Positions 1,873 through 17,411 of a stretch of DNA of 64,000 nucleotides are shown in pieces (the stretch's first letter is position 1; every line of letters starts with the position of its first letter). This DNA comes from Cryobacterium sp. Y82. Lineage in GTDB: Bacteria; Actinomycetota; Actinomycetes; Actinomycetales; Microbacteriaceae. The notes beneath the pieces are model-generated. The model worked only from the letters and a program-made list of their open reading frames with translations, ran no database searches and had not been told where the DNA came from. The position numbers and the translations under genes are program-made. The stretch lies in NCBI RefSeq assembly GCF_002929495.1, contig NZ_PJJJ01000029.1, forward strand, positions 1 to 64,000, written 5' to 3'.

Positions 1873-2067
1873 ATGGACGCGACGACGCAAATCACTCAGA
1901 CGTTTCTCACCCAGCGCGAGCTTTCCGAGCTGCTGCGAATGCCGGAGCGCACGCTCGAGGACTGGCGCCTGATGCAGACTGGGCCGCCCTATATCAAGCT
2001 CGGTCGGCTCGTGCGGTACGACGTGCAGGACGTGCTCACGTGGGTGCGTGAGCACCGACATGGTTAG
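1873..2067 (+). CDS. Excisionase-like helix-turn-helix protein
   Basis: A 64-aa protein with a MerR/AlpA-type winged helix-turn-helix: LTQRELSELLRMPERTLEDW forms the HTH and GPPYIKLGRLVRYDVQDVLTWV is the wing typical of recombination directionality factors and small mobile-element regulators. It overlaps the integrase start by 20 bases, so the two are probably co-translated. The ATG at 1873 was chosen because homologous sequence begins there. The Shine-Dalgarno is weak. Its likely role is to direct excision and/or control the integrase. Confidence 0.75.
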   Translation: MDATTQITQTFLTQRELSELLRMPERTLEDWRLMQTGPPYIKLGRLVRYDVQDVLTWVREHRHG

Positions 2068-3265
2068 ACCCCAGATCCTCGCCGGCGAGCTCGTCAGCAT
2101 CGTCATCGACGTGCTGCCGAGCGGGAGATACCGAGCTCGCGCATCCACTCGCGACGACAGCGGTCGCCTTCATCGCATCGGGGTCACAGCCAAAACCGAA
2201 GACCAGGCTCGCACCGAAGTCCACCGACAGGCTCGAGCGATGGCAACTGGTGGCGCCGGAGCGCTCTCGCCGTCGAGCACGATCGCCGATGCGGTGAAGC
2301 TTTGGCTATCGCAGGTGCTCGCCCGCGCCAAGGCCGGCAGCCTGTCGTACTCGACCTACGAATCGTATGAGACGACAGCTCGTGTGATCATCGTGCCGCG
2401 GTGCGGGGGAGTGCGGCTTGAGCACCTGACCGTCGGGCGCTGCGATCGCATCCTGCAGCGGATTTTGGAGGAGGAGACCATCTCGAAAGCGCGGCGAGCT
2501 CGCGCGGTGTTGAGCCTGCTCTGCGGCTACGCTGTGCGGGACGACGCGATGCCGCAGAATCCCGTGCGCGACGTTCAACGCCTGCCGATGTCACCGCGAA
2601 AGGAATCCGCTCTCACGCCCGCGCAGTTCACGAACATTCGCGGGCGCATGCAAGTATGGCGGCTCACCCGCGACGACGGGCCACGGCCCAACTATCGTGC
2701 CTTGATCGACGGCATGGACATCATGATCGGAACCTCGCTGCGGGTCGGTGAGTGCCTCGGCCTGCGCCGCTGCGACGTGGACATGACGACGTTGCCACCG
2801 ACCCTCATCGTGAGCGGCACGATTGTGAGCACCAAGGCGCAGGGGACGCACCGCAAGAACTCTCCCAAGCGCTCTCGGCAACGGCGGAGCATTGCGCTGC
2901 CGTCGATGGCCGCGGCGGCGGTGCGCCGCCGGCTGGCGCTTACCGAGCAGGATCCGGAGGCATTCCTGTTCCCCACGAAGACCGGTCGCTCGCTGAGCGT
3001 CAGCAACTACGAGCGACTGCTGCGCGCATTCGTGAAGGATGAACGCGCTGAGCTAGTCAAGTCGGGGGTCGACGTCGACGAGTACACGACGCATATCTAT
3101 CGGCGCACGGCCGCCACGCTGATCGAGCGGGCGGGCGGTATCACGCTGGCCTCGCGACTTCTCGGTCACGCAAACGAGCAGACCACCAGCAACAGCTACG
3201 TGGTCACGGCCGACATGGTCGACCCAGTGACGGCGGAGATCCTCGATGAGGTGCTCGGCGGTTGA
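2048..3265 (+). CDS. Tyrosine recombinase / phage-type integrase
   Basis: A 405-aa site-specific recombinase of the tyrosine (XerCD/phage integrase) family. Residues 1-65 look like an arm-binding domain, 75-175 the SAM-like core-binding domain and 190-400 the catalytic domain. The catalytic residues are visible: Arg232 (SLRVGE), His349 and Arg352 (HIYRR), His374 (LLGHAN) and the nucleophile Tyr384 (NSYVV). It appears intact. The start is GTG 2048 or ATG 2060; neither has a strong ribosome binding site, which fits translational coupling to the excisionase gene. No tRNA or obvious target gene adjoins it, so the att site is unknown. Confidence 0.9.
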   Translation: MSTDMVRPQILAGELVSIVIDVLPSGRYRARASTRDDSGRLHRIGVTAKTEDQARTEVHRQARAMATGGAGALSPSSTIADAVKLWLSQVLARAKAGSLSYSTYESYETTARVIIVPRCGGVRLEHLTVGRCDRILQRILEEETISKARRARAVLSLLCGYAVRDDAMPQNPVRDVQRLPMSPRKESALTPAQFTNIRGRMQVWRLTRDDGPRPNYRALIDGMDIMIGTSLRVGECLGLRRCDVDMTTLPPTLIVSGTIVSTKAQGTHRKNSPKRSRQRRSIALPSMAAAAVRRRLALTEQDPEAFLFPTKTGRSLSVSNYERLLRAFVKDERAELVKSGVDVDEYTTHIYRRTAATLIERAGGITLASRLLGHANEQTTSNSYVVTADMVDPVTAEILDEVLGG

Positions 3266-3452
3266 CTGCGGTCGAGTGCCTCGTCGAGAGGCGCATACGC
3301 GGGTTGCTGCATGGTGCCGGCCAGCCTTAGCCAGGACCTCAAACGGTTGACCGCCCACGCTCTACGAGATTCACCGGCCCGCTCGCATGACGCGGTCCCG
3401 GAACGCACTGACCCAGGGAGCCTTTGATTTGGCTGGCGAGATTGGAACCGTG

Positions 3453-4067
3453 TCAGTCGGGTAGCGGCACGTTGTAACCGTGCAACGCGGGCGCGGCTCC
3501 GAGCGTGATTGTGGTTAGCGCCACATTCAGCACACTCGGAAACGCGGAGCGGTAGCGGTCGAGGTTCATATCAAGCACGCGGCACAGGACGAGTCGCATC
3601 AGGGTGGAATGCATCACGACCAGCACGGGGCCGTCGTGCCCGTCGGCGATTTGCTCAAGTGCCGGCCACGCTCGGTCGACGGCGGCAACGCCCGATTCGC
3701 CCCCGGGCAGCGGACAATGGCCGGGACGTCGTTGAAAATTCTTGGCGGCCTCGGGAAACGCTTCGCGCATTTCGGCGCTCGTGAGGCCCTCGCCCTGGCC
3801 GAAATCCACCTCCCGTATGCGGGGGTCGATTCGAACGGTGAGTCCGAGCGCGTCTGCCGACGGAGTTGCTGTGATCACCGCTCGTGACAAGTCGGAGGAA
3901 TAGACTGCCGAGAGCGGCTGCCCCGCCGCCCAGCGCCCGAGGGCAAACGACTGGGCGCGGCCCTGGTAGGTGAGGCCGACATCCGTTGACCCGGCATAGC
4001 GGTTTTCCGCGTGCCAGAGCGTCTCGCCGTGGCGGGCCAAGATGACTGTGCTCACGCGGTCAGCCAA
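3453..4067 (-). CDS. Histidine phosphatase family protein (phosphoglycerate mutase-like)
   Basis: A 204-aa member of the phosphoglycerate mutase / histidine phosphatase superfamily. The RHGET motif gives the phospho-accepting His13 with Arg12. Arg62 (DLSRA), Glu86 (REVDFG) and His153 (VVMHS) complete the phosphate pocket. Its start overlaps the end of the upstream sugar kinase by 16 bases, so they form an operon. The partner may be a sugar phosphate made by the kinase, but the substrate cannot be read from the sequence. Confidence 0.85.
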   Translation of the reverse strand: MADRVSTVILARHGETLWHAENRYAGSTDVGLTYQGRAQSFALGRWAAGQPLSAVYSSDLSRAVITATPSADALGLTVRIDPRIREVDFGQGEGLTSAEMREAFPEAAKNFQRRPGHCPLPGGESGVAAVDRAWPALEQIADGHDGPVLVVMHSTLMRLVLCRVLDMNLDRYRSAFPSVLNVALTTITLGAAPALHGYNVPLPD

Positions 4068-5560
4068 CCTTTCGCAACCAGGTTGGCACGGAATACTCCG
4101 TAGCAGTCGTCGAGTTGTGAGCGTCGAACCGAGTCTGGCTCGAAAACGCTGCCGACGAGCGACATACGCGCAGCGACGGCAGGGAGAGGGATTTCGGAGT
4201 CATGCCCCGCCGCCCAAGCGGCCAGGATCGCCATGCCGATCGAGCCCTCGGCTGAGACAGGCACGGTGATAGAGCGCCCGAGTAGGTCGGCGCGCAGCTG
4301 GGTCCACCAAGCATTCTTCGTTCCGCCCCCCGAGGAGCTAAAGGTCCCCGTCACGGGAACCCCGGCGCCTTCCATCGTGTCTACGGCGAGGCGCTCCACG
4401 CAGGCCACGCCCAGCAGAACTGACGCGAAGAGCGTGTCGGGGTCGACGCCGCCGGCGATCGCCTCGGCTAGCGGATGATCGACCTTTGCGCTGCGCACAA
4501 ATCCGAGGGCGTCCGGGCGAATCACCGGAAACCGTTCGCCCGTCGTGACGAGCGGGTAGCTCGTCGGGATGGCATCGAGGCGATTGGCATACGTGTCAGC
4601 GATGCGGGCGGTTCTCGCTGCCAGATCCTCGCCGGCAAACAGGGCGCTCACGGCACCGGCGCCGACGCTGGAGGCGCCGCCGGGAAACCACAGGCCGTCG
4701 TGCGGTGCGCGGTGGGAGTACACGGCCCCGGTATCGTCGACGACGATGCGGTCGCTGACTCCCTTCACCACGAGGGTCGTGCCGATCACAGTGTGCCAGT
4801 CGCCGAGGGCGAGCGTTCCGGCGCCGAGCTGCGCGGCGCATCCGTCGGTCATTCCGGCGAAAATGGGGGTTCCGGCGGGGAGCCCGGTGGCCGTTTCCCA
4901 AGCCGCCGATGATTCCCCGAGCACGCTACCCGGCGCCACGACCGGCGGCAGGCGTTCCGGGTCGATGCCGAGCGTGTCGAGAACTGTGGTCGGCCATCGG
5001 AGCTCGAGCAGGTCGTAGCCAGATTTGAGGGAGTGGCTCCAATCGGATGCCACCGCCCGGCCGACCAGAGCCGCCGCGACGATGTCTGCCTGGGTCGCCA
5101 CGTGGGTGCCCGAGGGAAGGAGGTCGTTGCGGGCGAGCCAGACGATCTTCGGCAGCGCCCACGTGGGCTGGATGCGATAACCCAGTCGGTTCCAGAGCGC
5201 GGGATCGGTGGCAGCGACCTCCTCGCTCAGAGAGCCGGCGCGCGCATCGTCGTACATGAGTCCGGGAGAGAGCGGGTGGCCCGCGGCATCCACCGTGGTG
5301 ATGGTGCCGGAAGTTGCGCATACGGCGACCCCGCTGATGCGTGCCCTAGCGGCCTCCGACAGGGCGCCAATGGCCTCGGCCATGGCGGCTCGGGTTTGCT
5401 GAATCCACTGCGCGGGGATTTGTTCGTGGCGACCGTTCGCGCGGTCACTCGTGAGCGGTGCGTAGGCCGCGGCGTGCACGAGCCCGGGCCCGTCGGCGAG
5501 CGAGACCTTGACGCCCTGCGTGCCGACGTCAACGCCGAGCCAAAGCACTGATGCACTCAT
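4052..5560 (-). CDS. FGGY-family carbohydrate kinase
   Basis: A 502-aa kinase of the FGGY family (xylulokinase, ribulokinase, glycerol kinase and relatives), which phosphorylates a sugar or polyol with ATP. The N-terminal actin-like fold begins LWLGVDVGTQGVKVSLAD, GMTDGCAAQLGAG carries the catalytic Asp region, and the C-terminal domain has GGGTKNAWW for adenosine binding. The ATG at 5560 is preferred because the protein family begins there, and the upstream frame stops in an ATGA overlap. A GTG at 5602 is possible. The sequence most resembles xylulokinase-like members; the exact sugar is unknown. Confidence 0.85.
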   Translation of the reverse strand: MSASVLWLGVDVGTQGVKVSLADGPGLVHAAAYAPLTSDRANGRHEQIPAQWIQQTRAAMAEAIGALSEAARARISGVAVCATSGTITTVDAAGHPLSPGLMYDDARAGSLSEEVAATDPALWNRLGYRIQPTWALPKIVWLARNDLLPSGTHVATQADIVAAALVGRAVASDWSHSLKSGYDLLELRWPTTVLDTLGIDPERLPPVVAPGSVLGESSAAWETATGLPAGTPIFAGMTDGCAAQLGAGTLALGDWHTVIGTTLVVKGVSDRIVVDDTGAVYSHRAPHDGLWFPGGASSVGAGAVSALFAGEDLAARTARIADTYANRLDAIPTSYPLVTTGERFPVIRPDALGFVRSAKVDHPLAEAIAGGVDPDTLFASVLLGVACVERLAVDTMEGAGVPVTGTFSSSGGGTKNAWWTQLRADLLGRSITVPVSAEGSIGMAILAAWAAGHDSEIPLPAVAARMSLVGSVFEPDSVRRSQLDDCYGVFRANLVAKGWLTA

Positions 5561-6075
5561 CGCGCCCCTTGGATGCGGGCGCTCACGGGAATGAGGCGAC
5601 ACTCGGCATAGGACCGCTCATAAAACGCGGAGCGTTGGACGTCGGGGTCGATGTGGCGATGCTTGAAGCGGCAAATGACCTCGTCGACCGGGGCGCCGAG
5701 ACCAGCCCAGGCCACCATGGTGGCACTGCGGGAGCCGGCCGCGGAGTCGAGCGGAAGGTAGAGCGAACGGCCGAGGACGTTGGCAAAAATAGATGCGCAG
5801 GTATCGCACTTGAGCCTTATGAACGGGCCGCGCACCGTTGGGTCGACAAAGGGAGGGCGCTCGCCGGAAAGTGAAAGGAACGAGAGTGCACCGACGCCAG
5901 TACCAGCGGGCGGGCTCTGTTTGTACAGAGCGCAGCGGTGGATCAGCACCAGGCCGAACACGGAGAGCAGCCAACTAATGCTCAAGGTTACGACCATTAA
6001 CGGCATCACGCGGAGAAAGAGGTTTGGCTCTTGCGTGCAGAGCCACATGCCGGCCCGGCGACGATGTAGCGTCAC
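5557..6075 (-). CDS. Putative small membrane protein
   Basis: An open frame of up to 172 aa with one clear hydrophobic segment (about residues 22-46, MPLMVVTLSISWLLSVFGLV) and a soluble C-terminal part. Its stop overlaps the kinase start as ATGA, which supports co-transcription. No start has a good Shine-Dalgarno: candidates are GTG 6075, ATG 6048 and ATG 6006. No family was recognised. It may be real or a chance frame. Confidence 0.35.
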   Translation of the reverse strand: MTLHRRRAGMWLCTQEPNLFLRVMPLMVVTLSISWLLSVFGLVLIHRCALYKQSPPAGTGVGALSFLSLSGERPPFVDPTVRGPFIRLKCDTCASIFANVLGRSLYLPLDSAAGSRSATMVAWAGLGAPVDEVICRFKHRHIDPDVQRSAFYERSYAECRLIPVSARIQGAR

Positions 6076-6264
6076 GTGCGGGGTGTGTAACGCTGCAGCG
6101 TCACAGACCGTGTGATGACGGCTCGCATAGCCTCGAGGCTGCCTGAGATGATTCGCCCGGTGCGCGCCTGCACGAGCACGTTGCCGAAGGCAGTTGCGCC
6201 GTCGCAGGACCAGGACGCTGCTCGCCGAGGGCGTTGAGCCTCTCGGTGAGCGGATGCTCGCAGG

Positions 6265-6313
6265 CTGACAACCGGGCTCGACTTGCCCTAGAATATGATT
6301 CAGCAGTCATATT
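6265..6313 (+). promoter_or_regulatory. Promoter and operator of the XRE/nucleotidyltransferase pair
   Basis: CTGACA (6265-6270) and TAGAAT (6289-6294), 18 bases apart, make a reasonable -35/-10 pair. An exact inverted repeat, AATATGA at 6292-6298 and TCATATT at 6307-6313 with an 8-base spacer, overlaps the -10 and lies 16 bases before the ATG. This is where an autorepressing antitoxin would bind. Confidence 0.55.
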
Positions 6314-6329
6314 GGAAAGTGAGGCTCTC

Positions 6330-6905
6330 ATGGCAGTTTCATCCACTCTCGTGCGGGCCGCTCGTCGGAGTAAACATCTCACACAGGCGAGGCTGGCAGA
6401 GCTCACTGGCATCGATCAGGCCAGCGTCTCCCATCACGAGCGCGGACGAGACGCGGCATACAGCACGGTTGATCGGCTGCTCTCCGGCGCCGGGCACCGC
6501 CTCTATGCCGCTCCCACACGTCGAGACGACGCGGCCAGCGCGGCAGAAGCCATTCGTGAATACCTTCGGGTCGGCGACGCCGACCGAGCGCTCCGGGCTC
6601 TCCTCCAGCTCAACGATAACCTCACCGCCGAACACGGACTCGTTCGAGGAGTTCTTGGGCTGACGGAGCCCGAACCGACCGGTGATCGTGTGTGGGATGC
6701 CGCCATCGCGGCTCTCGTGGCGTGGCGGCTCAATGAGGAGCATGTTCCTCTCCCTGGATGGGTGCACAACCCCGATCGCACACTGGCCAAACCCGTCGTC
6801 TTCCGCGTCGACCCGGCCGACCCCGCGCCCGAGCGTGACCAAGTACCAAACGAATTCGCCGAACGCGGGGTCTTGGCGTGGGCGGACACCTTCGCGAGCG
6901 TCTGA
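6330..6905 (+). CDS. XRE-family transcriptional regulator, antitoxin-like
   Basis: A 191-aa protein. Residues 1-55 form a Cro/C1-type HTH (LTQARLAELTGIDQASVSHH) and the rest is an alpha-helical domain with AIREYLRVGDADRALRALL. The ATG at 6330 follows GTGAGG. The stop overlaps the next gene by one base (TGATG), so the pair is co-translated. XRE genes directly before DUF6036/AbiEii-like nucleotidyltransferases are a known toxin-antitoxin arrangement. By that analogy this is the antitoxin and autorepressor. Confidence 0.75.
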   Translation: MAVSSTLVRAARRSKHLTQARLAELTGIDQASVSHHERGRDAAYSTVDRLLSGAGHRLYAAPTRRDDAASAAEAIREYLRVGDADRALRALLQLNDNLTAEHGLVRGVLGLTEPEPTGDRVWDAAIAALVAWRLNEEHVPLPGWVHNPDRTLAKPVVFRVDPADPAPERDQVPNEFAERGVLAWADTFASV

Positions 6906-7488
6906 TGACAGCCTCTGCGCTGAATCGCAGCGATATCATCATCGGTCTTGGTGATCTTGTCGCCGAACTTCGTGCTGCGGGCGAGGTGGCTGGGATTCGG
7001 CTCGTGGGTGGGGCAGCACTCGCCCTGCGATACTTCGACCGGGGCACCACGCAGGACTTAGATGTCCTTCATGTTCATCCCGGCTCGGACGAGTCCGTCG
7101 CAGCCGCGGCTGGGCGGGTCGCCCGTCGAAACGGGTGGGATGCGCACTGGCTGAACTTCGAGGTCACGAACGCCGACGCCATCCCGACTCTCGGCCCGCC
7201 GTCGAATGGGAGACGATTTACGATCAGGATGGCATCGTCATCGAGGTGGCATCGAAAGAGGCGATGCTGGCCATGAAACTCCGAGCAAACCGGCCCGGGC
7301 GCGATACCCGAGACATCCGCCTCCTGCTCGCTCTGTGTAATATTCCCACGCTCGAGCGCGCGGAGCAGTTCTACGAAGAGTTCTATCCGGGCGACCTTCT
7401 CGTGCCCCGGGCAGAAATGATCGTGACGGCTATCCTCAGCGGCGAACCAACACCGGTTCCCCCGTCTCCTGGTCCGGTCGAAATCTGA
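6905..7488 (+). pseudogene. Frameshifted nucleotidyltransferase (DUF6036/AbiEii-like), toxin-like
   Basis: The first part (to about 7195) reads IRLVGGAALALRYFDRGTTQ followed by DLDVL, the nucleotidyltransferase GG and DxD signature. The family sequence then continues in another frame (from about 7205: VEWETIYDQDGIVIEVASKE, then the helical LRANRPGRDTRDIRLLLALC segment) to 7488. So a single-frame disruption lies around 7190-7215. Both halves are otherwise well preserved, so the break is recent, a sequencing error, or a programmed shift; no clear slippery heptamer was seen. If intact, it would be the toxin partner of the XRE gene. Confidence 0.7.
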
Positions 7489-7620
7489 CCCAGGAGTCAA
7501 TACTTATTGGCCACCGCTCGTGAAGGTTCTTGCATTCTCGTCTGGCCCCACCGCCCGACCTGACATGAACCGCATTTCTCGTCAGCGATGGCAAGAGTGG
7601 GCGCGTTGGAAAATGTCGTG

Positions 7621-7702
7621 GAGCCAGGAGCCAGGAGCCAGGAGCCAGGAGCCAGGAGCCAGGAGCCAGGAGCCAGGAGCCAGGAGCCAGGAGCCAGGAG
7701 CC
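7621..7702. repeat. 7-bp tandem repeat, about 11 copies
   Basis: GAGCCAG is repeated 11 times without error from 7621 to 7697, followed by a partial copy. It lies in the 384-base non-coding interval 7489-7872 between the frameshifted nucleotidyltransferase and the next operon. Perfect copy identity suggests an actively slipping minisatellite (VNTR). Frames across it on both strands are artefacts of the repeat. Nothing else was seen in this interval. Confidence 0.95.
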
Positions 7703-7872
7703 CGAGAACGGACGAGCGCCGTCGCACGACGCGAGCGCGACTCGCTGACGGCGGGGGAGCCTTGACTGGCCGGTGCTCGCGACAAGTCGACACTGACAGC
7801 CCGTCACGGTCCGCGCACCTCCTGTTAGCGGCATGATTGGCTCACCCACGACCGCCCACAGGAGGCTTCACC

Positions 7873-8139
7873 ATGACGATCCCGCAGGAGCAGTTCGACT
7901 ACCTGCTCAGCCGCACCGCGCTGGCCGCGCTGTTCTACTATCCGGAGACCGCCGTCGACGATGACGGCCCGAACCTGCAGAACGACATTGCGTATTGCTT
8001 GGAGCCCGTGGCCGGGATCGCAAACGAGGATGCCGAACGGCTGCGTCTCGTGATCGGGCGTGTGATCACAAACCCGACGGCCCATCGCTCTGAACTGCTG
8101 TCCTTGGTCATTGAGCTGGCTCCGCCGCCTGCCGAGTAG
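7873..8139 (+). CDS. Hypothetical protein, 88 aa
   Basis: A small acidic, probably helical protein beginning MTIPQEQFDYLLSRTALAAL. The start is firm: AGGAGG ends 8 bases before the ATG. It lies 8 bases upstream of the Arg-rich gene, so the two form an operon. No family recognised. The acidic charge next to a strongly basic partner suggests they may interact, which is inference. Confidence 0.7.
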   Translation: MTIPQEQFDYLLSRTALAALFYYPETAVDDDGPNLQNDIAYCLEPVAGIANEDAERLRLVIGRVITNPTAHRSELLSLVIELAPPPAE

Positions 8140-8147
8140 CCGCGATC

Positions 8148-9113
8148 ATGAACGACCCATCTGAGGAACGTGCCGCGGCGCGGAAGTCGCTGGCGGAGCA
8201 TCCGTCTGCTGGTGATGCGGCGGAGCGGCGGCGTCAGTATGTGGCGGCGAATCGCGATCGGATCCGCGAGCTGAATCGGCTCTGGCGGTCGGAACACCTG
8301 GACCGTGCCCGGGAGCTCAATCGTGATTCGATGCGTCGGGCTGCGGCCCGTCGGCATCGTGAGGCGGAGGTGCGGGCGCGGGGGAGGGAGCGGGCGAAGC
8401 GCTGGCGGCTGGAGCATCCGGAGCGGCGGCGTGAGTATCAGCAGCGATGGGTGGCGGAGAATCGTGAGAAAGTGCGAGAGTACTACAACCGATATTACGA
8501 GGCCCACCGCAGCGAGGTGAATGCGCGGGCTGCGGCCAGGCGGGATGCGGACCCGGAGCGCACGAAGCAGATCACCCGGCAGTGGGCCGAGCGCAACAAG
8601 GAGCGCCGGGCTGAGTCGCAGCGTAACCGGCGCAGCGACCCGGAGATCTACCAGTCCGAGCTGGAGGCCAACGCTGCCGCGCGACGTCTCAAGCGCAGCC
8701 TCAGTCGGGCTGGCCTCCCGCCGAAGCGTATTCACGCTGCGACTGCGGCTGAGCGTCGGGCCAACGAGCGCGACGCCGACGACTATTTCAATGATCCGTC
8801 GCGCCCCGAGCATCTGCGGCAGTTCACGGTGTTCGCTGAGTCGCTGACCGAGCACATGCTCAAGAACGGCGCCCGCATGCGCGAGTTCGCCGAGGCATAC
8901 GTATCGTCACGGACGCGTGTCGGGCTTCCGTCGGTATCGGTGGAGGACATCGCCTACGCCCGGGCCGTCGAGATAGTCTCAGATCGGATGCGCCGCGTCG
9001 ACCTGCTGACCGGCCGCGACGTCGCTGCGGCCGTGCGTTCCACCAAAGCCGAGGTCGGCCGCGAAGAGCGTCAGCGGCAGTTCGACGGACTCGTGAACGC
9101 CGTCCTGATTTAG
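8148..9113 (+). CDS. Arg/Glu-rich protein with 15-residue repeats
   Basis: A 321-aa strongly charged protein. Residues ~28-150 are built from a 15-residue repeat with consensus xxRW/YxxxxxxRxREx: aromatic residues fall at 31, 46, 86, 101, 116 and 146, all in phase except the 46-to-86 step. Examples are AKRWRLEHPERRREY and QQRWVAENREKVREY. Residues ~200-321 form a less charged, helical domain (DDYFNDPSRPEHLRQFTVF, then VEDIAYARAVEIVSDRMRRVDLLTGRDV). The basic repeat suggests nucleic-acid binding or a long single helix. No characterised family is recognised. It is in an operon with the 88-aa gene. Confidence 0.7.
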   Translation: MNDPSEERAAARKSLAEHPSAGDAAERRRQYVAANRDRIRELNRLWRSEHLDRARELNRDSMRRAAARRHREAEVRARGRERAKRWRLEHPERRREYQQRWVAENREKVREYYNRYYEAHRSEVNARAAARRDADPERTKQITRQWAERNKERRAESQRNRRSDPEIYQSELEANAAARRLKRSLSRAGLPPKRIHAATAAERRANERDADDYFNDPSRPEHLRQFTVFAESLTEHMLKNGARMREFAEAYVSSRTRVGLPSVSVEDIAYARAVEIVSDRMRRVDLLTGRDVAAAVRSTKAEVGREERQRQFDGLVNAVLI

Positions 9114-9602
9114 ATGCACCGCAATAGTGCGAGGTACCGTGTCGACGCAGATAAGAGCCCCTCGGCTAATTGGTCAACGAGGCGCAGCCGAGGCACGGCT
9201 CAGGTCCGGAGGAGCGGGATGAAAAGCTTGGTGGCTGGACCGACATCGCCATGACCTCATCCCAGGGATGTGAAGCCGAACTGTCGGCCTAACCGCTGGA
9301 TTGGACACCGCAGTCACGTGATGCCTGTGTCGTCGCGATAGTGGAGCGGCCGCAAGCCAGACTCTGACAAACAGCTTCGGGCGAGGACTCTAGTCGACAA
9401 GGGCCGAAATAGAGCAGCTCTTGCAGAGGCTTTGCGCAAACTGGAGGACCGTGAAATGGTGGACCGCACAGTGTTCACCGTCGTGTCCGTGCCTGCTTAG
9501 GGAAAAACGCGAACAAAGCGCTCGTTTATGTCTGTGGTTGGCCAAGGCAAGACCGGTCGGTTCACAGCAGCTGGTACATTGACCAATCTTGAGGAGTCCA
9601 CC
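9114..9602. other. Intergenic region with a gene remnant
   Basis: About 490 bases without an intact gene. The only coding-like signal is the regulator remnant at 9411-9500. GAGGAG at 9590-9595 is the ribosome binding site of the following HAD gene. The rest shows no repeat or RNA structure I can support. Confidence 0.5.
9411..9500 (+). pseudogene. Possible C-terminal remnant of an HxlR-type regulator
   Basis: The frame ending at the TAG at 9498-9500 reads ALAEALRKLEDREMVDRTVF, which resembles the recognition-helix and wing segment of HxlR-family regulators (typically LxxxLRxLExxGLVxRxV). It is followed by only a few more residues before the stop. No start or upstream domain can be found in the same frame. 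Interpreted as a decayed fragment. The match is short, so this is tentative. Confidence 0.35.
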
Positions 9603-10277
9603 ATGAACGCAGCCATGCCGGTGATAGTTTTTGATGTCAATGAAACCCTCTCGGACATGTCTCCGATGGAGAATCGTTTCGTAGAGGTCGGTGCCCCGGG
9701 CTACCTGGCTCGCATCTGGTTCGCAGCCTTGCTGCGGGATGGGTTCGCCCTCGCGGCGTCTGGGGGCAGCGAGAGATTCTCCGTGGTGGGCGCGGAAATC
9801 CTGCGTGCTTTGTTCCGCGACGTTACCTTGACCAGCACTGTCGACGAGGCGATAAGCCACGTCTTGGACGGCCTCGGGGCATTGAAGCTGCACCCGGACG
9901 TTGCAGACGGGGTGCGGGCGCTCAAGGATGCGGGATGTCGCCTCGCCACCCTCTCCAACGGGTCCGCGCAGCTGGCCCAGAACATGCTGACCGCGGCGGC
10001 GATCCGGACTGACTTTGACGCCCTCCTCACTGTCGAGGATGCGCCGCAATGGAAACCAGTCGGTTCCGCCTACCGCTTCGCGGCGGAAGCTCTCGGAGTT
10101 CGACCAGCCGACATGCTCCTGGTCGCCGTGCACCCGTGGGACATCCACGGGGCAGCTCAGGCGGGCCTGCGGACTGCCTGGCTGAACCGAAACGATGCAC
10201 TCTACCCGAGCTATTTTGCGACACCGGATTACACCGTTCCGAAGCTCAGCGAGCTCGCCGAGCGCCTTTTGGCTTAG
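9603..10277 (+). CDS. Haloacid dehalogenase type II (HAD family)
   Basis: A 224-aa HAD-superfamily hydrolase of the (S)-2-haloacid dehalogenase type. Motif I is VFDVNETLSD with the nucleophile Asp11 and the Asn variant common in actinobacterial members. Motif II is TLSNGS, motif III the Lys in QWKP, and motif IV the acidic/His segment AVHPWDIHGAAQAGLRTAWL. It would hydrolyse a small halo-acid or phosphoester in the cytosol. The ATG at 9603 follows GAGGAG. It is monocistronic, downstream of a decayed HxlR-like fragment. Confidence 0.85.
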   Translation: MNAAMPVIVFDVNETLSDMSPMENRFVEVGAPGYLARIWFAALLRDGFALAASGGSERFSVVGAEILRALFRDVTLTSTVDEAISHVLDGLGALKLHPDVADGVRALKDAGCRLATLSNGSAQLAQNMLTAAAIRTDFDALLTVEDAPQWKPVGSAYRFAAEALGVRPADMLLVAVHPWDIHGAAQAGLRTAWLNRNDALYPSYFATPDYTVPKLSELAERLLA

Positions 10278-10374
10278 GAAGTCGTCGTCGTACGCGCCCT
10301 CGACGCAGTCATCGCACTCGTCTGAGGATAGTGAATCGGGTAATACACAGCACGGAATGCAGGCACAATGAACT

Positions 10375-10593
10375 ATGGACTCAAAGCAGGAAAAGAATGC
10401 TGTCGACGATATGGTTCGACGGCTTGAGATCAGATACGCCGATTTGCCTGCGGATCGGGTGAAAGCGGTCGTGACGGCGTGTCACGCTTCCCTCTCTGAC
10501 AAACCCATCCGGGACTTCATACCGGTACTGGTTGAACACGCAGCGCGGTCCCAGTTGCGCGCGGAGCGGAACGCACCTCCCCGCGCGGCCTAG
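10375..10593 (+). CDS. Three-helix bundle domain protein, 72 aa
   Basis: A short helical protein, VRRLEIRYADLPADRVKAVV through PIRDFIPVLVEHAARSQL, matching the small actinobacterial family with a three-helix bundle dimerisation domain (often annotated DUF3562-like). The conserved PIRDFxPVLVEHxA segment is clear. The function is unknown; many such genes lie near regulators or transporters. The start at 10375 has only a weak Shine-Dalgarno. It converges on parA, 25 bases away. Confidence 0.65.
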   Translation: MDSKQEKNAVDDMVRRLEIRYADLPADRVKAVVTACHASLSDKPIRDFIPVLVEHAARSQLRAERNAPPRAA

Positions 10594-10618
10594 CGTCGAT
10601 TCGCTTCAGCGAAACGTC

Positions 10619-11380
10619 CTACTCGGGCTGTGAGCCGGGCTTGACCTTGGCCAAGGAGCGAACGTGTTTCCAGAGCTCGGCAAATACCCGCGCCGGCTCA
10701 GTGCTCGGTGCGTACGTTCCTACAGGGGCGCGTTCGGCCCCCATCCGTTCGATCACGACGGTCGCGGGAACGACGAGGTCGATCACTTCGGGGTGCTCGC
10801 GCGGCAGCGCCTCTGCGGCAGCTCGGTGCACAAGCTTGCGGCGATCCACCATCGAAAGGAATGCGAACACTTTGGGCGGCCGGTTTGATGTCGCGATGAT
10901 CTCGTTGACCTGAGCCAGTGAACGGAGCGAAAGCGGCGACGGTACCAGGGGGACGAGGGCAAGGTCGGCTGCGTGGAGTGCGTTTTCAGCCACGAGGGAC
11001 GCCCCGGGAGGGCAATCGAGGATCGCGACATCGTATTGGTTCGAGACCGACTCCAGTACCCTGGCGATTCGCTGCGTCGACTTCTTGGCTGAGTCAAGGA
11101 GCAGGTCGAGATTTCGGTAAGTGTCATCCGCCGGCAGCACATCGAGGTTTTTGTACGCGGTCGGCCGGATGACAGCATCCGCGTGGCTTTTGCCCCGAAT
11201 GAGGGAATCCACGCCGCCCTTGACTTTCGCTTTGACGTTGAGGAGATACGTCGCGGCGCCCTGCGGATCCAAGTCCCACAGCAGCACCCGGCACTCGTGA
11301 GATGCCTCCCAGGCGAGATTGACCGCCGTCGTTGTTTTGCCGACCCCACCCTTGGTGCTGTACACCGCGACCGTCTTCAT
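10619..11380 (-). CDS. ParA family ATPase (orphan)
   Basis: A 253-aa deviant-Walker P-loop ATPase. STKGGVGKTTTAVNLAW gives Lys10 and Lys15 of the KGGVGKTT motif, LLWDLDPQGAATYLL is the switch I region, and AILDCPPGASLV is Walker B. It is close in length to chromosomal and plasmid Soj/ParA proteins, but no parB-like gene or parS-like repeat lies beside it. It may position a cargo (plasmid-like element, protein cluster) rather than the chromosome. The start is ATG 11380, divergent from the large membrane protein gene. Confidence 0.85.
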   Translation of the reverse strand: MKTVAVYSTKGGVGKTTTAVNLAWEASHECRVLLWDLDPQGAATYLLNVKAKVKGGVDSLIRGKSHADAVIRPTAYKNLDVLPADDTYRNLDLLLDSAKKSTQRIARVLESVSNQYDVAILDCPPGASLVAENALHAADLALVPLVPSPLSLRSLAQVNEIIATSNRPPKVFAFLSMVDRRKLVHRAAAEALPREHPEVIDLVVPATVVIERMGAERAPVGTYAPSTEPARVFAELWKHVRSLAKVKPGSQPE

Positions 11381-11654
11381 GAAAACATCATAGGAGTCAA
11401 CCTTGTGGCGCCGGAGACAGTGTCAACTCAAGACCGTGTCGTGCTGGAGGCGCCCTCAGTGGCCACGTGCGGTGGGTTCCAGCAGGGTACGCGTCCAGGA
11501 CTCTCCGCATTCTCCGTCTGGAGCTTTGAAGGAGCCGGTGAGAGGCGACTTCGGTGTGCAATAGGCTGCTAATTGCCATTAATTTCTCATCGAATACACA
11601 GGTGATGTTCACCCTGTGTTGGCACAAACCAATCTTGGGGAGATCACGACATTT

Positions 11655-14252
11655 ATGTCGCTTGAAAACACGCCGTCGACCACGCCGCCAAATCCATTTC
11701 AGGCCGGATCGATACCGCCGACTCCGACTACGCCGAACCAACCCGTAGTGAATTCAGCGCCTGCTCAGCCCGTGCTTACGCAGGCCAACCCGTATTCTGG
11801 TGCGGCCGGGCAGCCGCTCGCTCAGGGGCCGAGCGGGCCGAACGCGTTTTCCGTGATCGCGCCGCGCGCGTGGCGGGGAGCCCTCGCATCCGCTGGAATC
11901 GGGTACGGGGCAGCGTTTGTTGTCGCGCTCCTGACCGTTGCCCTGACCGGGCTTCTTACCGGCTGGGAGATGTTCTCGGCTGGCTGGCTTGTCTCCGGTC
12001 CTGTGCAGTTGGTCGCAATGGCAACATTTGGCCAGCTTGGCGCCTCGGCAGAAGTCGAGTACATCATCTCCTTCGCCGGAAGTGTCACTGTGGGAGTGCT
12101 TCCGCTGCTGGTACTAGCCGCTCTGCTGGCTGGCAGCTATCTTTCCAGTCGTTTCGTGGGACGCGGCGTCTGGCAGGGCTCATCGGCCCTCATCCTGTCG
12201 GCCGTGTCCGGGCTCACACTCGCAGTCGGGGCGACAGTGCTGGCCGCGGTGCTCCCTGTGCAGTTCCCCGATCTGCAGTTGGGCATTCCTGTCGGCTCAA
12301 CCTCCGCGGCATCAGTCGGTTCGTTCCTTGGCGCGCTCGTCATCGGATTCGTGGTCTCCTACGTGGCCCGGCTGCAAGCCACGGACGGATGGTCGCGTCT
12401 TCTCGTCCGCGCAACCTGGCTACCGTGGGGCACCGTGCGTATTGCTGGCCTGCACCTCGGCGCATTTATCGCCGTGCTGGCGGTCGTGCTCGCTATTATG
12501 ACCCCGCTGTCTGCGGCCGACGAATATGTCGGAGTGCTTCCCGTGTTCTTGCTTACCTTCGCCATCAACGCCGTCGTGATCGGCATGTTGGGCGCGTTTT
12601 CCGCCGATCTGAGTGATTTGGACCGCGTGCTGGCCACTCTGGGCGGGGCGTCCAACGAGCAGACGCAGCAAAACCTCTCCGTTTTCAGTGACGGAGTCTC
12701 CGGCTATATCTGGCTTATCGTGCTGCTCGCCTTGATTCTGGCAGTCGTCGCCTCGCTGCTGCTCGCCGTTCGTCGCAATCGAGTGCGCCCGGCACTCCAG
12801 TCGTGGCTGGCCACCATCGCCACGTACATGGTCTTCGGTTTGGTGTTGCAGCTTCTTGGCAGCGCTCTAGTCACGGCATCGATGACCGCACCCGAGAATG
12901 CCTCGGCGTCGGGAACAATGGGGCCCGCTGCGTGGACCTTTCTGATCTTCGCCATCTGGGGTGCTGGTATCGAGGCCCTGACGCGCTTCGTCGCACCGGT
13001 TATCTTGGCCTATGCGACGCCAAGAGCAATCGGTGCCCTTGTCAAGTTATCTGGCCAGGAACGCTTGTTGCCCGTTGCGCCGACGGCACCGCTCGTGCCG
13101 GTTGGAACCGTTGCAGCTGGCGCGGCCTTGCCTGCGGCAGGGGCGGGGTACGGCATCGATCCCGCCACTGGCTATCCCGTCACTGTGGTCACCGCGGCCG
13201 GCCAGCCGGGTGCGGTACCGCTCGCGTTCGCGACCAGCACCATGTCTCCGGCAACGGCCAAACGAGTGAAGATCGGCGCCATCATCGTCGGTGCTGCTGC
13301 ACTGCTCATCATCGCGGCAAGTGTGGCTGGTGGAATTGTGCGTTCGTCGGTCTTTGGCCCGCAGAATGTTGCGACCGCTTACCTCGACGCGTTAGAAAAG
13401 GGCAACGCATCGACGGCTCTGAAACTGCTCGAGTCTTCAGCGGATGCCGGCGACGGTATGCTCTCCAACGACATTTTCGGGCTGGCGACAGATCGCATCG
13501 AAGACGCCGCCATTTCGGAGGTCACCATCACCGAAGATGTAGCCCAGATCGAAGTGCATTTTAAACAGGGCGGAGTTTCTGACTCTGCCGTGCTGAAGCT
13601 CACCCGCACGAGCACCGACTGGCTGATTGCCGATAACTGGTCCGTTCTGAACGCCGAGCCTGGTCGGATCGACGTTTACATACCGACCAGACGGGGCGAC
13701 GTGGAGCTCGAGGTGAACGGTATGTCGGTCGGTACAACGAAGGACGACGGGCTGACCCTGCCGGCTTTTCCCGGCACCTATGAAGTGGCCATTCCAGCCA
13801 CGGACTACTTCGAAGAATCATCGGTGACCTATGTCGTGAGCGGGCTGCTCGGGGGGTACGGGGAGTTCGAATCGAGCGACGACGGGTTCACGGCCACCCC
13901 AACGGCCGAGTATGAAGCCGCCGCCTTGGACGCCGTTAACGCGCTGATCACGACCTGCCTCGCTGCGGGAGATGCCGCATCTGACGACTGCCCGAACATG
14001 GGGTACATCTCGTCCTACTACTCCAACGTCGCGTACACCCTCGTTACAGCGCCCGACCTTACCGTGGATCTGTCGTACGAGGACGGCGGCTTGACGGTCT
14101 CCACCGACACCTACGGTGTCGTGAGTATGGAGTACGACGTCAACTATGGTTTCTCTTCCGAGATCCGTCATGAGACCACTGAGAACTACCTCACGATTAG
14201 GGCTGAGGTCAACGTCGTCGACGGCGAGGTCGTGGTGACCTCAATCTACTAA
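11655..14252 (+). CDS. Multi-pass membrane protein with C-terminal extracellular domain
   Basis: An 865-aa protein. Residues 1-60 are Pro/Gln/Asn-rich (PTPTTPNQPVVNS), about ten membrane segments follow to ~470, then an Ala/Gly/Pro-rich linker, one more membrane helix at ~539-562 (KIGAIIVGAAALLIIAASVA) and about 300 residues outside. The outer part starts with an NTF2-like-looking segment (VATAYLDALEKGNASTALKL), then a short Ig-like stretch and a Tyr-rich C-terminus. No family is recognised with confidence. The ATG at 11655 has GGGGAG 12 bases upstream. A strong terminator follows the gene. Confidence 0.75.
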   Translation: MSLENTPSTTPPNPFQAGSIPPTPTTPNQPVVNSAPAQPVLTQANPYSGAAGQPLAQGPSGPNAFSVIAPRAWRGALASAGIGYGAAFVVALLTVALTGLLTGWEMFSAGWLVSGPVQLVAMATFGQLGASAEVEYIISFAGSVTVGVLPLLVLAALLAGSYLSSRFVGRGVWQGSSALILSAVSGLTLAVGATVLAAVLPVQFPDLQLGIPVGSTSAASVGSFLGALVIGFVVSYVARLQATDGWSRLLVRATWLPWGTVRIAGLHLGAFIAVLAVVLAIMTPLSAADEYVGVLPVFLLTFAINAVVIGMLGAFSADLSDLDRVLATLGGASNEQTQQNLSVFSDGVSGYIWLIVLLALILAVVASLLLAVRRNRVRPALQSWLATIATYMVFGLVLQLLGSALVTASMTAPENASASGTMGPAAWTFLIFAIWGAGIEALTRFVAPVILAYATPRAIGALVKLSGQERLLPVAPTAPLVPVGTVAAGAALPAAGAGYGIDPATGYPVTVVTAAGQPGAVPLAFATSTMSPATAKRVKIGAIIVGAAALLIIAASVAGGIVRSSVFGPQNVATAYLDALEKGNASTALKLLESSADAGDGMLSNDIFGLATDRIEDAAISEVTITEDVAQIEVHFKQGGVSDSAVLKLTRTSTDWLIADNWSVLNAEPGRIDVYIPTRRGDVELEVNGMSVGTTKDDGLTLPAFPGTYEVAIPATDYFEESSVTYVVSGLLGGYGEFESSDDGFTATPTAEYEAAALDAVNALITTCLAAGDAASDDCPNMGYISSYYSNVAYTLVTAPDLTVDLSYEDGGLTVSTDTYGVVSMEYDVNYGFSSEIRHETTENYLTIRAEVNVVDGEVVVTSIY

Positions 14253-14273
14253 CCGAGCGGCAGGGCATTTGAG

Positions 14274-14308
14274 GTTCGGGTTCGGCTTGCGCCGAACCCG
14301 AACTTCTT
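14274..14308 (+). terminator. Rho-independent terminator
   Basis: A perfect 13-bp stem, GTTCGGGTTCGGC at 14274-14286 and GCCGAACCCGAAC at 14291-14303, with a TTGC loop, is followed by TTCTT. It lies 21 bases after the stop of the large membrane protein gene. Confidence 0.85.
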
Positions 14309-14332
14309 GAACCCATGTGGGTATTCCTACCA

Positions 14333-14347
14333 CCCCCAATCAGGGGG
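14333..14347. promoter_or_regulatory. Short inverted repeat upstream of hybrid kinase
   Basis: CCCCCAATCAGGGGG, a 5-bp stem around a 5-base centre, sits about 165 bases before the histidine kinase start. This is a plausible operator position, but no binding protein is identified. The rest of the 260-base interval holds only the terminator and a Shine-Dalgarno (GGAGGG). Confidence 0.3.
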
Positions 14348-14512
14348 CATCCGAGGATGTTTCATGATATAGATTAAGGCGAGGGAAATTCTCCGGTCGA
14401 CTCGCGGCAATCAAGCCCGTCGAACCTGCCAACCGCGTGTCTCTCGACCTAACTGCAAAACGTTCCACATCATTAATCGCCGTTAGCGTAGTGATAGGTC
14501 ACGGAGGGCGTG

Positions 14513-17407
14513 ATGGACATGACACAACCCCGACGTGAGGACGACGCCCGGTTGTCAAGCCAGGACGGAATGAGTGCTGAAGAGCCGACTCTGAGCAACG
14601 ACAGTTATTCGAATGCGCAGAAGTATGTCGCTGACAAGAACATGTTGGAACAGACGGTGAGCCTGCAGCATGCCATCTTCAATAGTGCCAACTTTGCGTG
14701 CGTCGCTACCGATGCCAAGGGTGTCATACAAATCTTCAACGTCGGCGCGCAGCGCATGCTCGGCTACAAGTCCGAGGATGTCGTGAATACGGGCGTGCCA
14801 GGGGATATGCACGACCCGGACGAAATCATCGCCCGAGCGGCGCGGTTGAGCGCCGAGTTTGGTAGCACAATTCAACCCGGCTTTGAAGCCCTGGCTTACA
14901 AGGCGAGCCGGGGAATCGAGGATATCTACGAACTGACGACGATTCGAAAGGACGGGAGTCGCTTTCCGACAACGGTGTCGGTCACGGCCCTACGTGACGT
15001 CGATACGGAGATAATCGGTTATCTGTTGATCAGCACCGACGACACGGCGCGCAATCAAGCATCGATCGCCCAATCTCTACTCGATCAGCGGCTGCGCGAC
15101 CAGCAGTTTTACACCCGGTCGCTGATTGAATCGAATATTGATGCGCTGATGATGACCGACACCAGGGGGGTTATCTCCGACGTGAACCAGCAGATGATTA
15201 AACTCACTGGGCGCACCAGGGACGAGCTCATCGGCGCCCCGTGCCGCAATTTCTTCACCGATCCGGCAAGGGCGGACACGGCCATCAAGCGTGCTCTGAC
15301 CGAGAGTAAGGTAAGCGACTACGAACTGACGGTGTGCTCCATAGATGGCGTCGAGACCGATGTGTCGTACAACGCTGCGACCTTCTACGATCGAGATCGG
15401 GTTGTGCAGGGTGTATTTGCATCGGCCCGTGATGTGACAGAACGCAAGCGGTTCGAACAAGCACTCCAGAAGACGAACATCGAGTTGGAACACGCCAGCC
15501 GCATGAAGACGGAGTTTCTGGCAACAATGTCCCACGAACTACGCACTCCCTTGAACGCCATCATCGGCTTTTCAGAGGCTCTCAAGGATGGACTCATCGG
15601 GGAACTTACGGCGACGCAGCGCGAGTATATCGGGGACATTTATTCCAGTGGCCACCACCTTTTATCGCTGATCAATGACATTCTCGATTTGTCCAAAGTC
15701 GAGGCGGGGATGATGGACATTGAGCTGGAATCGGTCGATGTGCGGCGGTTGTTGGATCAAAGTTTGTTGATCGTGCGAGAAGACGCTCTGATCCGTGGGC
15801 TGCACCTCGTATTCGACGGAGCGGACGATCTGGGGACGCCGATGCTTGACCGACGCAAAACCAAACAAATCGTTTACAACCTCCTGTCAAATGCCGTCAA
15901 GTTCACACCAGACCTCGGTGCGGTCACACTCACGGCCAGAAGGGTTCCCCGCAGCGCGGTGGGCAAGATCGCCGGCTCCCGTCCGGTGCATGATTTTCCG
16001 TTGTCCAAGAGCGACGTCGATCATTTTCTGGAAATTCGCGTCGATGACACGGGAATGGGCATCTCGCGTGAAAATATGTCGAAGCTTTTTCTCGCTTTCA
16101 GCCAGATCGACAGCACCTTGGCGCGCAAGTTCGAAGGCACCGGACTCGGTCTCGCCACGGTCAAGCAGATGGTGGAGTTGCAGGGAGGCACCGTTGCTGT
16201 TGCCAGCGAGACCGGCGAAGGATCCAGCTTTGCCATCTGGCTTCCACTGGGTGCAACCGACGACCAGGCGCCAGCTTGGCCGGTTGAAACAAAAGCGTCG
16301 AGCTCCGACGGACTGCCAGAAGCATCGAAAACGTTGGAACCGGCTTCCGGCCCGGTCGGCCAGCCCAAAGCTTCGGCGCACCGCGACCCCGTTGGCGCGG
16401 CCAGTGTAGTGGGAACCGGAAGACTGCCCACTGTCGGCAACTTGGCGGAAGCGGCGGCGGAAGTGGCGAAGGAACGGGCCCTCACTGGCGGAGACGAAAG
16501 CAACGCGGTTGCTTCCGCGAATCAGATCAAAACTGACTCTGGGATCGAATCATTGGACACGGCGACAGAGACTCTTTCCGATGTAACCGAGAGTATTCAG
16601 CAAGCGCCCGCAGGTGAGGGGGAAACCGACAAGCACGTTGTTCTTGTAATTGAGGACGACGCCAAAGGGGCCGAGGTTCTTCGGCTTTTGCTGGAGGCTG
16701 AAGAGTTTCAGGTCATCATCGCGCGCAGCGGTGAGGAGGGTTTGGACCTTGCCCCGAAACAGCGTCTCAGCCTCATAACTCTCGACATCCGTCTGCCGGG
16801 ATTGGACGGTTGGGGTTTTCTGATTCGCCTGCACGAGTTTTCAGATCTTGCAGCCGTTCCGATTGTGATCATTGCAGGGGAGACCGATGTGAGCCTGGCC
16901 TTGACGCACGGTGCGGCCGCCGTACTGGAGAAGCCGATCAGTCGACAGGCGCTGCAGCAGTCCTTGAAAGCGCTCGGCCTCAGCCCTGACGCCCGGCGCA
17001 CCCGACGCGTTCTGGTCGCCGACGATGACCCCGAAACTGTTGACGTGATCGCACGCTTTCTGACTCGTCCGGAGTATGCGGTCGAGCGCGCTTTCACAAA
17101 AGACGAGGCCATCGAGATGGCGCAACGTTTGCATCCGGATCTGGTGTTGCTCAATCTCATGATGGAAGGGTTCAGCGGCTACGAGGTTGTGTTGGCGTTG
17201 CAGAGCGATGAAACCACCGAACATATCCCAGTGTTGATCGTATCTGGCAAGCCACTCACGAAGCAAGAATCAGCGGCGGTTGACAGTGACCCAACCCAGC
17301 CGGTGCGCGTACTCGGTACAGAAAAGTTTAACCGAGCGTCCTTTATCGCCGAGGTCAAGCGCGCTTTGAAGTCTGGCGAACTTCGCGACGACCTGAAAGG
17401 TGGGTAG
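14513..17407 (+). CDS. Hybrid sensor histidine kinase, PAS-PAS-HisKA-HATPase-REC-REC
   Basis: A 964-aa cytosolic sensor kinase with no membrane segments. Two PAS domains (about 45-175 and 190-305) precede the HisKA domain with His341 (MSHELRTP). The ATPase domain shows the N box NLLSNAVKF, G1 DDTGMGIS and G2 GTGLGLATV. A ~120-residue low-complexity linker leads to REC1 with phospho-acceptor Asp758 (LITLDIRLPG) and to REC2, where the acceptor position is Asn881 (LVLLNLMMEG). REC2 therefore probably cannot be phosphorylated. The start may be ATG 14513 or 14519, both after GGAGGG. The gene is followed directly by a double-receiver gene, its probable partner. Confidence 0.9.
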   Translation: MDMTQPRREDDARLSSQDGMSAEEPTLSNDSYSNAQKYVADKNMLEQTVSLQHAIFNSANFACVATDAKGVIQIFNVGAQRMLGYKSEDVVNTGVPGDMHDPDEIIARAARLSAEFGSTIQPGFEALAYKASRGIEDIYELTTIRKDGSRFPTTVSVTALRDVDTEIIGYLLISTDDTARNQASIAQSLLDQRLRDQQFYTRSLIESNIDALMMTDTRGVISDVNQQMIKLTGRTRDELIGAPCRNFFTDPARADTAIKRALTESKVSDYELTVCSIDGVETDVSYNAATFYDRDRVVQGVFASARDVTERKRFEQALQKTNIELEHASRMKTEFLATMSHELRTPLNAIIGFSEALKDGLIGELTATQREYIGDIYSSGHHLLSLINDILDLSKVEAGMMDIELESVDVRRLLDQSLLIVREDALIRGLHLVFDGADDLGTPMLDRRKTKQIVYNLLSNAVKFTPDLGAVTLTARRVPRSAVGKIAGSRPVHDFPLSKSDVDHFLEIRVDDTGMGISRENMSKLFLAFSQIDSTLARKFEGTGLGLATVKQMVELQGGTVAVASETGEGSSFAIWLPLGATDDQAPAWPVETKASSSDGLPEASKTLEPASGPVGQPKASAHRDPVGAASVVGTGRLPTVGNLAEAAAEVAKERALTGGDESNAVASANQIKTDSGIESLDTATETLSDVTESIQQAPAGEGETDKHVVLVIEDDAKGAEVLRLLLEAEEFQVIIARSGEEGLDLAPKQRLSLITLDIRLPGLDGWGFLIRLHEFSDLAAVPIVIIAGETDVSLALTHGAAAVLEKPISRQALQQSLKALGLSPDARRTRRVLVADDDPETVDVIARFLTRPEYAVERAFTKDEAIEMAQRLHPDLVLLNLMMEGFSGYEVVLALQSDETTEHIPVLIVSGKPLTKQESAAVDSDPTQPVRVLGTEKFNRASFIAEVKRALKSGELRDDLKGG

Positions 17408-17411
17408 CGAT

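Follow-up and report, generated by a model that had tools for sequence, protein, structure and literature searches.

The window analysed here, a 64,000-nucleotide stretch of Cryobacterium sp. Y82 DNA, carries two adjacent forward-strand genes, one for a small acidic protein and one for a large basic repeat protein. These genes and their surroundings comprise the following features:

1576-2067: HTH_17 excisionase-like ORF, beside the integrase
2048..3265, + strand: tyrosine recombinase/integrase (PF00589), part of a mobile setting
6330..6905, + strand: helix-turn-helix (antitoxin-like) ORF; in Cryobacterium loci L098 and L123 the membrane and small genes are separated by DNA related to it
6908..7488, + strand: AbiEii-like nucleotidyltransferase gene, broken here into two frames, each below the Pfam cut-off
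7620..7702, no strand: 7-bp tandem repeat array seen in the sequence, directly adjoining the block of homology on its left side
7717..7872, + strand: 5′ DNA homologous to other copies, many of which begin to match at 7716/7717 or further right
7860, + strand: AGGAGG upstream of the small gene, read from the sequence
7873..8139, + strand: gene for the small acidic protein (88 aa, pI 4.2, net charge -9)
8148..9113, + strand: gene for the large Arg/Glu-rich repeat protein (321 aa, pI 10.8, net charge +21), C-terminally truncated relative to ~410-aa homologues
9114..9151, + strand: DNA beyond the premature stop that, by comparison with other copies, is still homologous to the relatives' large gene; homology ends near 9151

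The initial annotation had described an acidic 88-aa ORF ahead of a basic Arg/Glu-rich ORF, and we confirmed both the coordinates and the 8-nt spacing; the same 8 nt separate the stop of the small gene from the start of the large one in all 10 Cryobacterium copies measured, the window included. The 321-aa ORF is present as described, but it is not the whole protein: it ends at codon 322, relatives reach about 410, and 18 of 20 other copies in this and other Cryobacterium genomes encode 394-424 aa, the remaining two being matched only from residue 25 or 39 onward. That neither protein belongs to a characterised family was upheld. No family in Pfam, NCBIfam, PHROGs or PADLOC rose above noise for the window pair, a profile search of solved structures by sequence returned no credible match for either protein, and the large protein had no match among phage records.

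Within the genus Cryobacterium, the small gene is found in 16 and the large gene in 24 of 57 genomes, which often hold several copies each, many of them broken. A scan of genome contigs yielded 41 loci in Cryobacterium, Agromyces, Microbacterium, another member of the Microbacteriaceae and one Actinomycetales MAG. By tblastn the small gene adjoins the large one in 35 of these, and a 36th locus (L126) has a divergent small gene seen only as an ORF. It is lacking in five loci: L105 misses the 5′ end, L109 stops at a contig edge, L110 and L115 have deletions, and in L131 a different acidic ORF lies upstream of the large gene. The two are thus a genuine gene pair, and no homologues of the large gene that never carry the small one came to light. 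More distant copies occur on three Microbacterium plasmids, each with the small gene and an adjoining relative of the large gene, which on one plasmid is cut to 195 aa beside an IS256 gene. One of these plasmids has mobC and a relaxase gene near the pair, and another an annotated mobF elsewhere. As a separate observation, an annotated mobF relaxase gene (90786-94229) is present on NZ_CP064874.1, which PLSDB classes as a non-mobilizable plasmid. Some loci contain a 3′ end of the large gene in isolation, with no 5′ part (L076-L079, L081, L058 at 17130-17474, and L069), the one in L058 adjoining xis/int remnants. We considered these orphan ends as the product of a tail-swapping system and dropped the idea, since other broken copies have other end points.

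Inspection of the relatives placed the pair in a larger unit. The gene order relaxase/helicase, membrane protein, small protein, large protein is complete in 22 of the 41 scan loci and in 10 of the 15 loci from Agromyces, Microbacterium and other Microbacteriaceae; the other five of these 15 (L126-L130), the most divergent and of Microbacterium type, contain the pair only, the fetched DNA giving no match to the relaxase or the membrane gene. Counted singly, the small gene is present in 35 of the 41 loci, the membrane gene in 32 and the relaxase or part of it in 23. The relaxase/helicase is about 1180 aa long and is of the MobF type: the L099 copy, which was the one scanned, scored 236.5 bits with NF041492 against a cut-off of 100, Pfam TrwC gave 8e-90, and the L111 copy was assigned by Pfam. 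The product of the next gene, about 130-150 aa long and without a family match, is read as a membrane protein from its hydrophobic stretches. Homology by blastn starts sharply just upstream of the relaxase gene and stops in or at the end of the large gene. The flanks are mostly unrelated, with right flanks common to L112 and L114 and to L056, L067 and L070, and some shared stretches between L113 and L119; cargo can interrupt the four-gene unit. From these comparisons it is well supported that the relatives' pair belongs to a MobF module. The accessory, mobile-element-linked setting proposed by the initial annotation from neighbouring mobile and toxin-antitoxin (TA) genes holds; the MobF mobilisation module to which the pair often belongs in relatives had been missed.

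The window copy is a remnant of such a unit. In the relatives the membrane-protein gene sits upstream of the block that matches window positions 7717..7872, whereas the window contains no relaxase or membrane-gene match with E <0.5, no copy of the 21-bp hairpin motif described below and no match to the island right arm better than E 0.37. Since the relaxase, the membrane gene and approximately the last 90 residues of the large protein are gone, the window copy is probably no longer functional. The TA genes to its left look like cargo inserted into a MobF module. Relatives of this TA pair lie between the membrane and small genes in L098 and L059, where the toxin gene is intact (in L098 it encodes 203 aa and scores above the Pfam cut-off), and partly in L123; the ancestor of the window copy thus seems to have been a module into which the TA pair had come as cargo. 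Positions 95-163 of the window match an isolated 3′ end of the large gene weakly (E 0.007). The window begins at the contig start, and its bases 1-82 are found again in a number of other loci, in three cases close to a contig start (L107, L125, L200); they are probably a repeat.

At the left edge of the module we found a 21-bp motif, CACGCCTCTTGCAGATCGAGG, present as an exact copy 42-57 bp ahead of the matched relaxase start in 10 of the 17 scan loci that retain the 5′ end of the relaxase, each examined over 130 bp upstream. An eleventh locus (L093) has a copy with 4 mismatches. The remaining six have no motif within 130 bp, and three of them carry it 2.6-9.7 kb upstream (L122; L099, as L218; L104, as L217). 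The motif can fold into a short hairpin (CCTC/GAGG), alongside which many sites have a second, variable hairpin; among 47 sites the preceding base is C in 45 and the third base before is T in 38. Allowing 0-2 mismatches, it occurs in 30 of the 57 genus genomes, the reversed pattern giving 1 match; allowing 0-1 mismatch, it occurs in 48 of 398 family genomes and 25 of 85 genera, with 0 matches for the reversed pattern. No exact copy was found in viral contigs. The loci that carry the motif are L111-L114, L117, L119, L120 and L124 (left edge, 3428-3520) and L182-L218.

The orientation of the motif relative to nearby relaxase genes is fixed across the family. Among 61 motif places, a relaxase start lies within 120 bp in 21 and within 3 kb downstream on the same strand in 28, and a relaxase on the wrong side or strand was seen in 0, a count made with the 78 best of 103 relaxase matches; including the remaining 25 brings in no wrong-side case. 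Looked at from the other direction, the motif (at most 1 mismatch) lies within 120 bp of just 17 among 58 full-length relaxases of the family, so that others of that branch lack it. We regard the 21-bp motif as a candidate origin of transfer (oriT) of MobF islands. The nic site recognised by the HUH relaxase TrwC of R388 is an inverted repeat with an adjacent single-stranded stretch (PMC4176350), and the candidate motif is likewise an inverted repeat with an adjacent stretch. The two differ in that the loop of our motif is largely constant, partly because few mismatches were permitted in the search; the loop of R388 is described as tolerating any base.

In L061, a complete module, an integrase and a tRNA-Pro(GGG) gene lie within 11 kb (3626-14687), making this locus a candidate whole island. 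Seven further loci, L196 (2001-6281), L198, L201, L206, L211, L213 and L216, share the motif and a block of about 4.3 kb, pieces of which are 89-98% identical and which holds an ORF that reads as ABC-transporter-like; none has a relaxase match in the fetched DNA. A tRNA-Pro-like 3′ end lies at the right of six of these seven, full tRNA-Pro genes are found in L206, L211 and L061, and a conserved right arm with a tRNA 3′ fragment is present at several islands. The relaxase-less motif islands are candidates for mobilisation in trans, and they fit the iOriT class as it is set out in PMC11389934. One empty-site search, made with the left flank of L069, found none.

In the Agromyces loci L112 and L114, several kb are common to the right of the module and unrelated DNA begins exactly left of the motif, a break point that suggests recombination at the motif site. 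Because of this break and the sharp borders of the unit, we also considered that the four genes might form an independent transposon driven by the relaxase and bounded by the motif at one end, for which the site-specific recombination and integration at oriT reported for TrwC (PMC3264647) offered a precedent. This model was dropped as less fitting than integrase-mediated islands with an oriT, which better accommodate the tRNA-Pro genes, the 3′ fragments and the conserved right arm.

We next turn to the proteins themselves. In the window large protein, aromatic residues stand in 15-residue phase at positions 31, 46, 86, 101, 116 and 146, as had been noted, and the RxRE-like motif said to follow each of them does follow most, though in the sequence not Y116. 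Identity autocorrelation over residues 25-165 is highest at lag 15 (29 matches), and the 4 aromatic pairs at this lag exceed those in shuffled sequences (p = 0.00085 for lag 15; p = 0.02 for any lag 5-30). The best lag is 15 or 30 in 41 of 48 sequences, comprising 24 of 30 A2 rows (window included), all 16 phage-contig proteins and L126 (also an A2 row), but not L131. An AlphaFold2 model made from the full-length relative in L091 (mean pLDDT 84; pTM only 0.43) contains seven 13-14-residue helices and longer ones, parted by single-residue breaks at 35, 50, 90, 105, 120, 135, 150 and 164, with one 39-residue helix (51-89) covering the stretch that lacks breaks. All six aromatics sit four residues ahead of a helix break. 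By this model the large protein is predicted to string together helices, most of them 13-14 residues long and spaced every 15 residues, with additional helical regions after them. Foldseek gave no match to it at E<=0.001, the best probability among the matches listed being 0.07.

Sequence comparison indicates purifying selection on residues 31-300 of the large protein and on the small protein. With medians taken over 70-149 pairs whose dS lay within 0.05-1.2, the rest being left out, dN/dS was 0.13 for residues 31-190, 0.13 for residues 191-300 and 0.19 for the small gene; the value of 0.45 for residues 301-408 marks faster evolution there.

The small protein is predicted to form a four-helix bundle. 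Its model finds its best fold matches in FusB chains (Z 8.1, rmsd 2.8 with 85 aligned; Z 6.0 for the next match of another kind), specifically the N-terminal helical bundle, where a Z under about 13 may, by the tool's own note, mean little for helical bundles. The Foldseek match to FusB is weak (E 0.5), the small protein has no Pfam match, FusB included, and FusB chains have about 200 residues against 88 here. In a mirror-tree analysis of 16 loci, controlling for the relaxase left no correlation between small and large proteins (partial r 0.075, p 0.31), which speaks against a tight pair; under that control the membrane and large proteins correlate slightly (partial r 0.18, p 0.02).

Taken together, we give an even chance to the explanation that the pair are accessory mobilisation proteins of a MobF (TrwC/TraI-type) module in Microbacteriaceae islands, a basic DNA-handling repeat protein and its acidic partner. 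In the mechanism we infer, the large protein would bind nucleic acid through an Arg-rich face, its target during mobilisation being the oriT region or the transferred strand, and the small protein would bind the large one and hold it soluble or inactive until needed. Nucleic-acid binding is weakly suggested by a resemblance to RRWREANPEKxRE-type repeat proteins of phage contigs, which share the 15-residue period and the Arg/Glu/Asn-Pro pattern; the link rests on low-complexity repeat with weak E-values. An HNH domain was found in 4 of six such phage proteins scanned, those four having been picked for visible HNH-like letters from 16 proteins translated out of 20 loci. The large proteins differ in having a conserved region of their own (residues 191-300) and, in the five scanned, no Pfam HNH match. 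The gene for the acidic partner directly precedes that for the large protein, an arrangement that would suit a chaperone, and the charge-neutralising or chaperone role that the initial annotation had offered for it is possible.

The strongest rival is that the pair is passenger cargo, for example for defence or anti-defence, which travels with the relaxase module and plays no part in transfer. Units can consist of the relaxase alone, of relaxase and membrane gene, or of all four genes, a nested content that this explanation would account for, and no MobF relaxase lies beside the pair on the Microbacterium plasmids or in L126-L130. Motif-relaxase units that lack the pair include L183, L185, L187, L189, L195 and L197, and a relaxase match at 1e-100 is present in 77 of 398 family genomes as against 10 of 398 (8 of 85 genera) with the small protein, both searches having scored only some candidates per genome. 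Because many relaxase units lack it, the pair is dispensable and, from these sequences, not essential to them. Against this, in three genera the pair stands at one and the same place and in one order, among island genes that otherwise vary, and it has no PADLOC match; we judge the passenger explanation unlikely.

A second rival takes the pair to be like VirE1 and VirE2 of Agrobacterium, with a DNA-coating protein exported by a type IV secretion system (T4SS) and a small acidic secretion chaperone encoded directly upstream. VirE1 is described as a small acidic chaperone that is co-expressed with VirE2, a protein that binds ssDNA (PMC5389803), and the likeness lies in a small acidic protein co-expressed with a DNA-transfer protein, its gene standing immediately ahead of the large basic one inside a mobilisation operon. 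Yet we found no sequence relation, neither protein's profile retrieving VirE1 or VirE2 among solved structures, and the large protein has no clear C-terminal export signal: the 20 C-terminal residues carry a net positive charge in 18 of 26 sequences, but in only 5 of the 26 do they rank within the highest tenth of the windows before them. Its model, moreover, predicts all-helical repeats. We judge the exported-protein explanation decidedly improbable.

It is still harder to sustain that the pair is a toxin-antitoxin system in which the acidic upstream protein neutralises a large basic toxin: the small acidic partner, the tight spacing and the mobile setting would suit it, but neither protein matches a known toxin or antitoxin family, no enzyme domain was recognised, and isolated or broken large genes persist that lack a matching small gene (L105, L110, L115, L076-L079). 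Finally, pure decay, by which the window ORFs are non-functional fossils and any function refers only to the relatives, draws on the premature stop, the loss of homology at 9151, the absent relaxase and membrane genes and the broken toxin gene, adds to the main explanation and does not oppose it, and as an account of its own is scarcely credible given the low dN (0.065-0.081) against high dS (0.44-0.54) of the window large gene relative to five relatives, even if inheritance from selected ancestors explains these values too.

The accessory-mobilisation explanation can be extended to a family-wide network in which Microbacteriaceae islands share one hairpin oriT and a MobF relaxase, relaxase-less islands are moved in trans, and the pair serves as a DNA-coating or guiding system. 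Here the 15-residue helical-repeat protein would package the transferred strand with the acidic protein as its chaperone, a Gram-positive analogue of VirE1/VirE2 with an unrelated fold. We consider this full version quite unlikely.

Compared with known MobF integrative mobilisable elements (IMEs) and conjugative plasmids, the modules of the relatives are alike in their MobF relaxase-helicase and in the hairpin motif by many relaxase genes; as in integrative elements, some islands have integrases, and tRNA-Pro genes or 3′ fragments lie at some. They differ in that the pair and the membrane protein match no named accessory factor. In literature listings on Cryobacterium and Microbacterium relaxases, MobF and actinobacterial IMEs, nothing describes the pair or the motif. 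According to a 2017 review (PMC5704250), no canonical IME known has a MobF or MobH relaxase, and Actinobacteria contribute just one canonical IME.

The locus thus leads to a family-wide mobilisation system, of which the pair is an uncharacterised accessory in a module of known kind and the window copy a decayed representative. Two orphan proteins gain a concrete, testable setting, MobF mobilisation in Actinobacteria, and the candidate 21-bp oriT offers a means of searching for islands that are mobilised in trans, among them those that have no relaxase gene. If the islands are shown to transfer, they would extend the IME class to MobF, a relaxase type with no IME listed in the 2017 review (PMC5704250).
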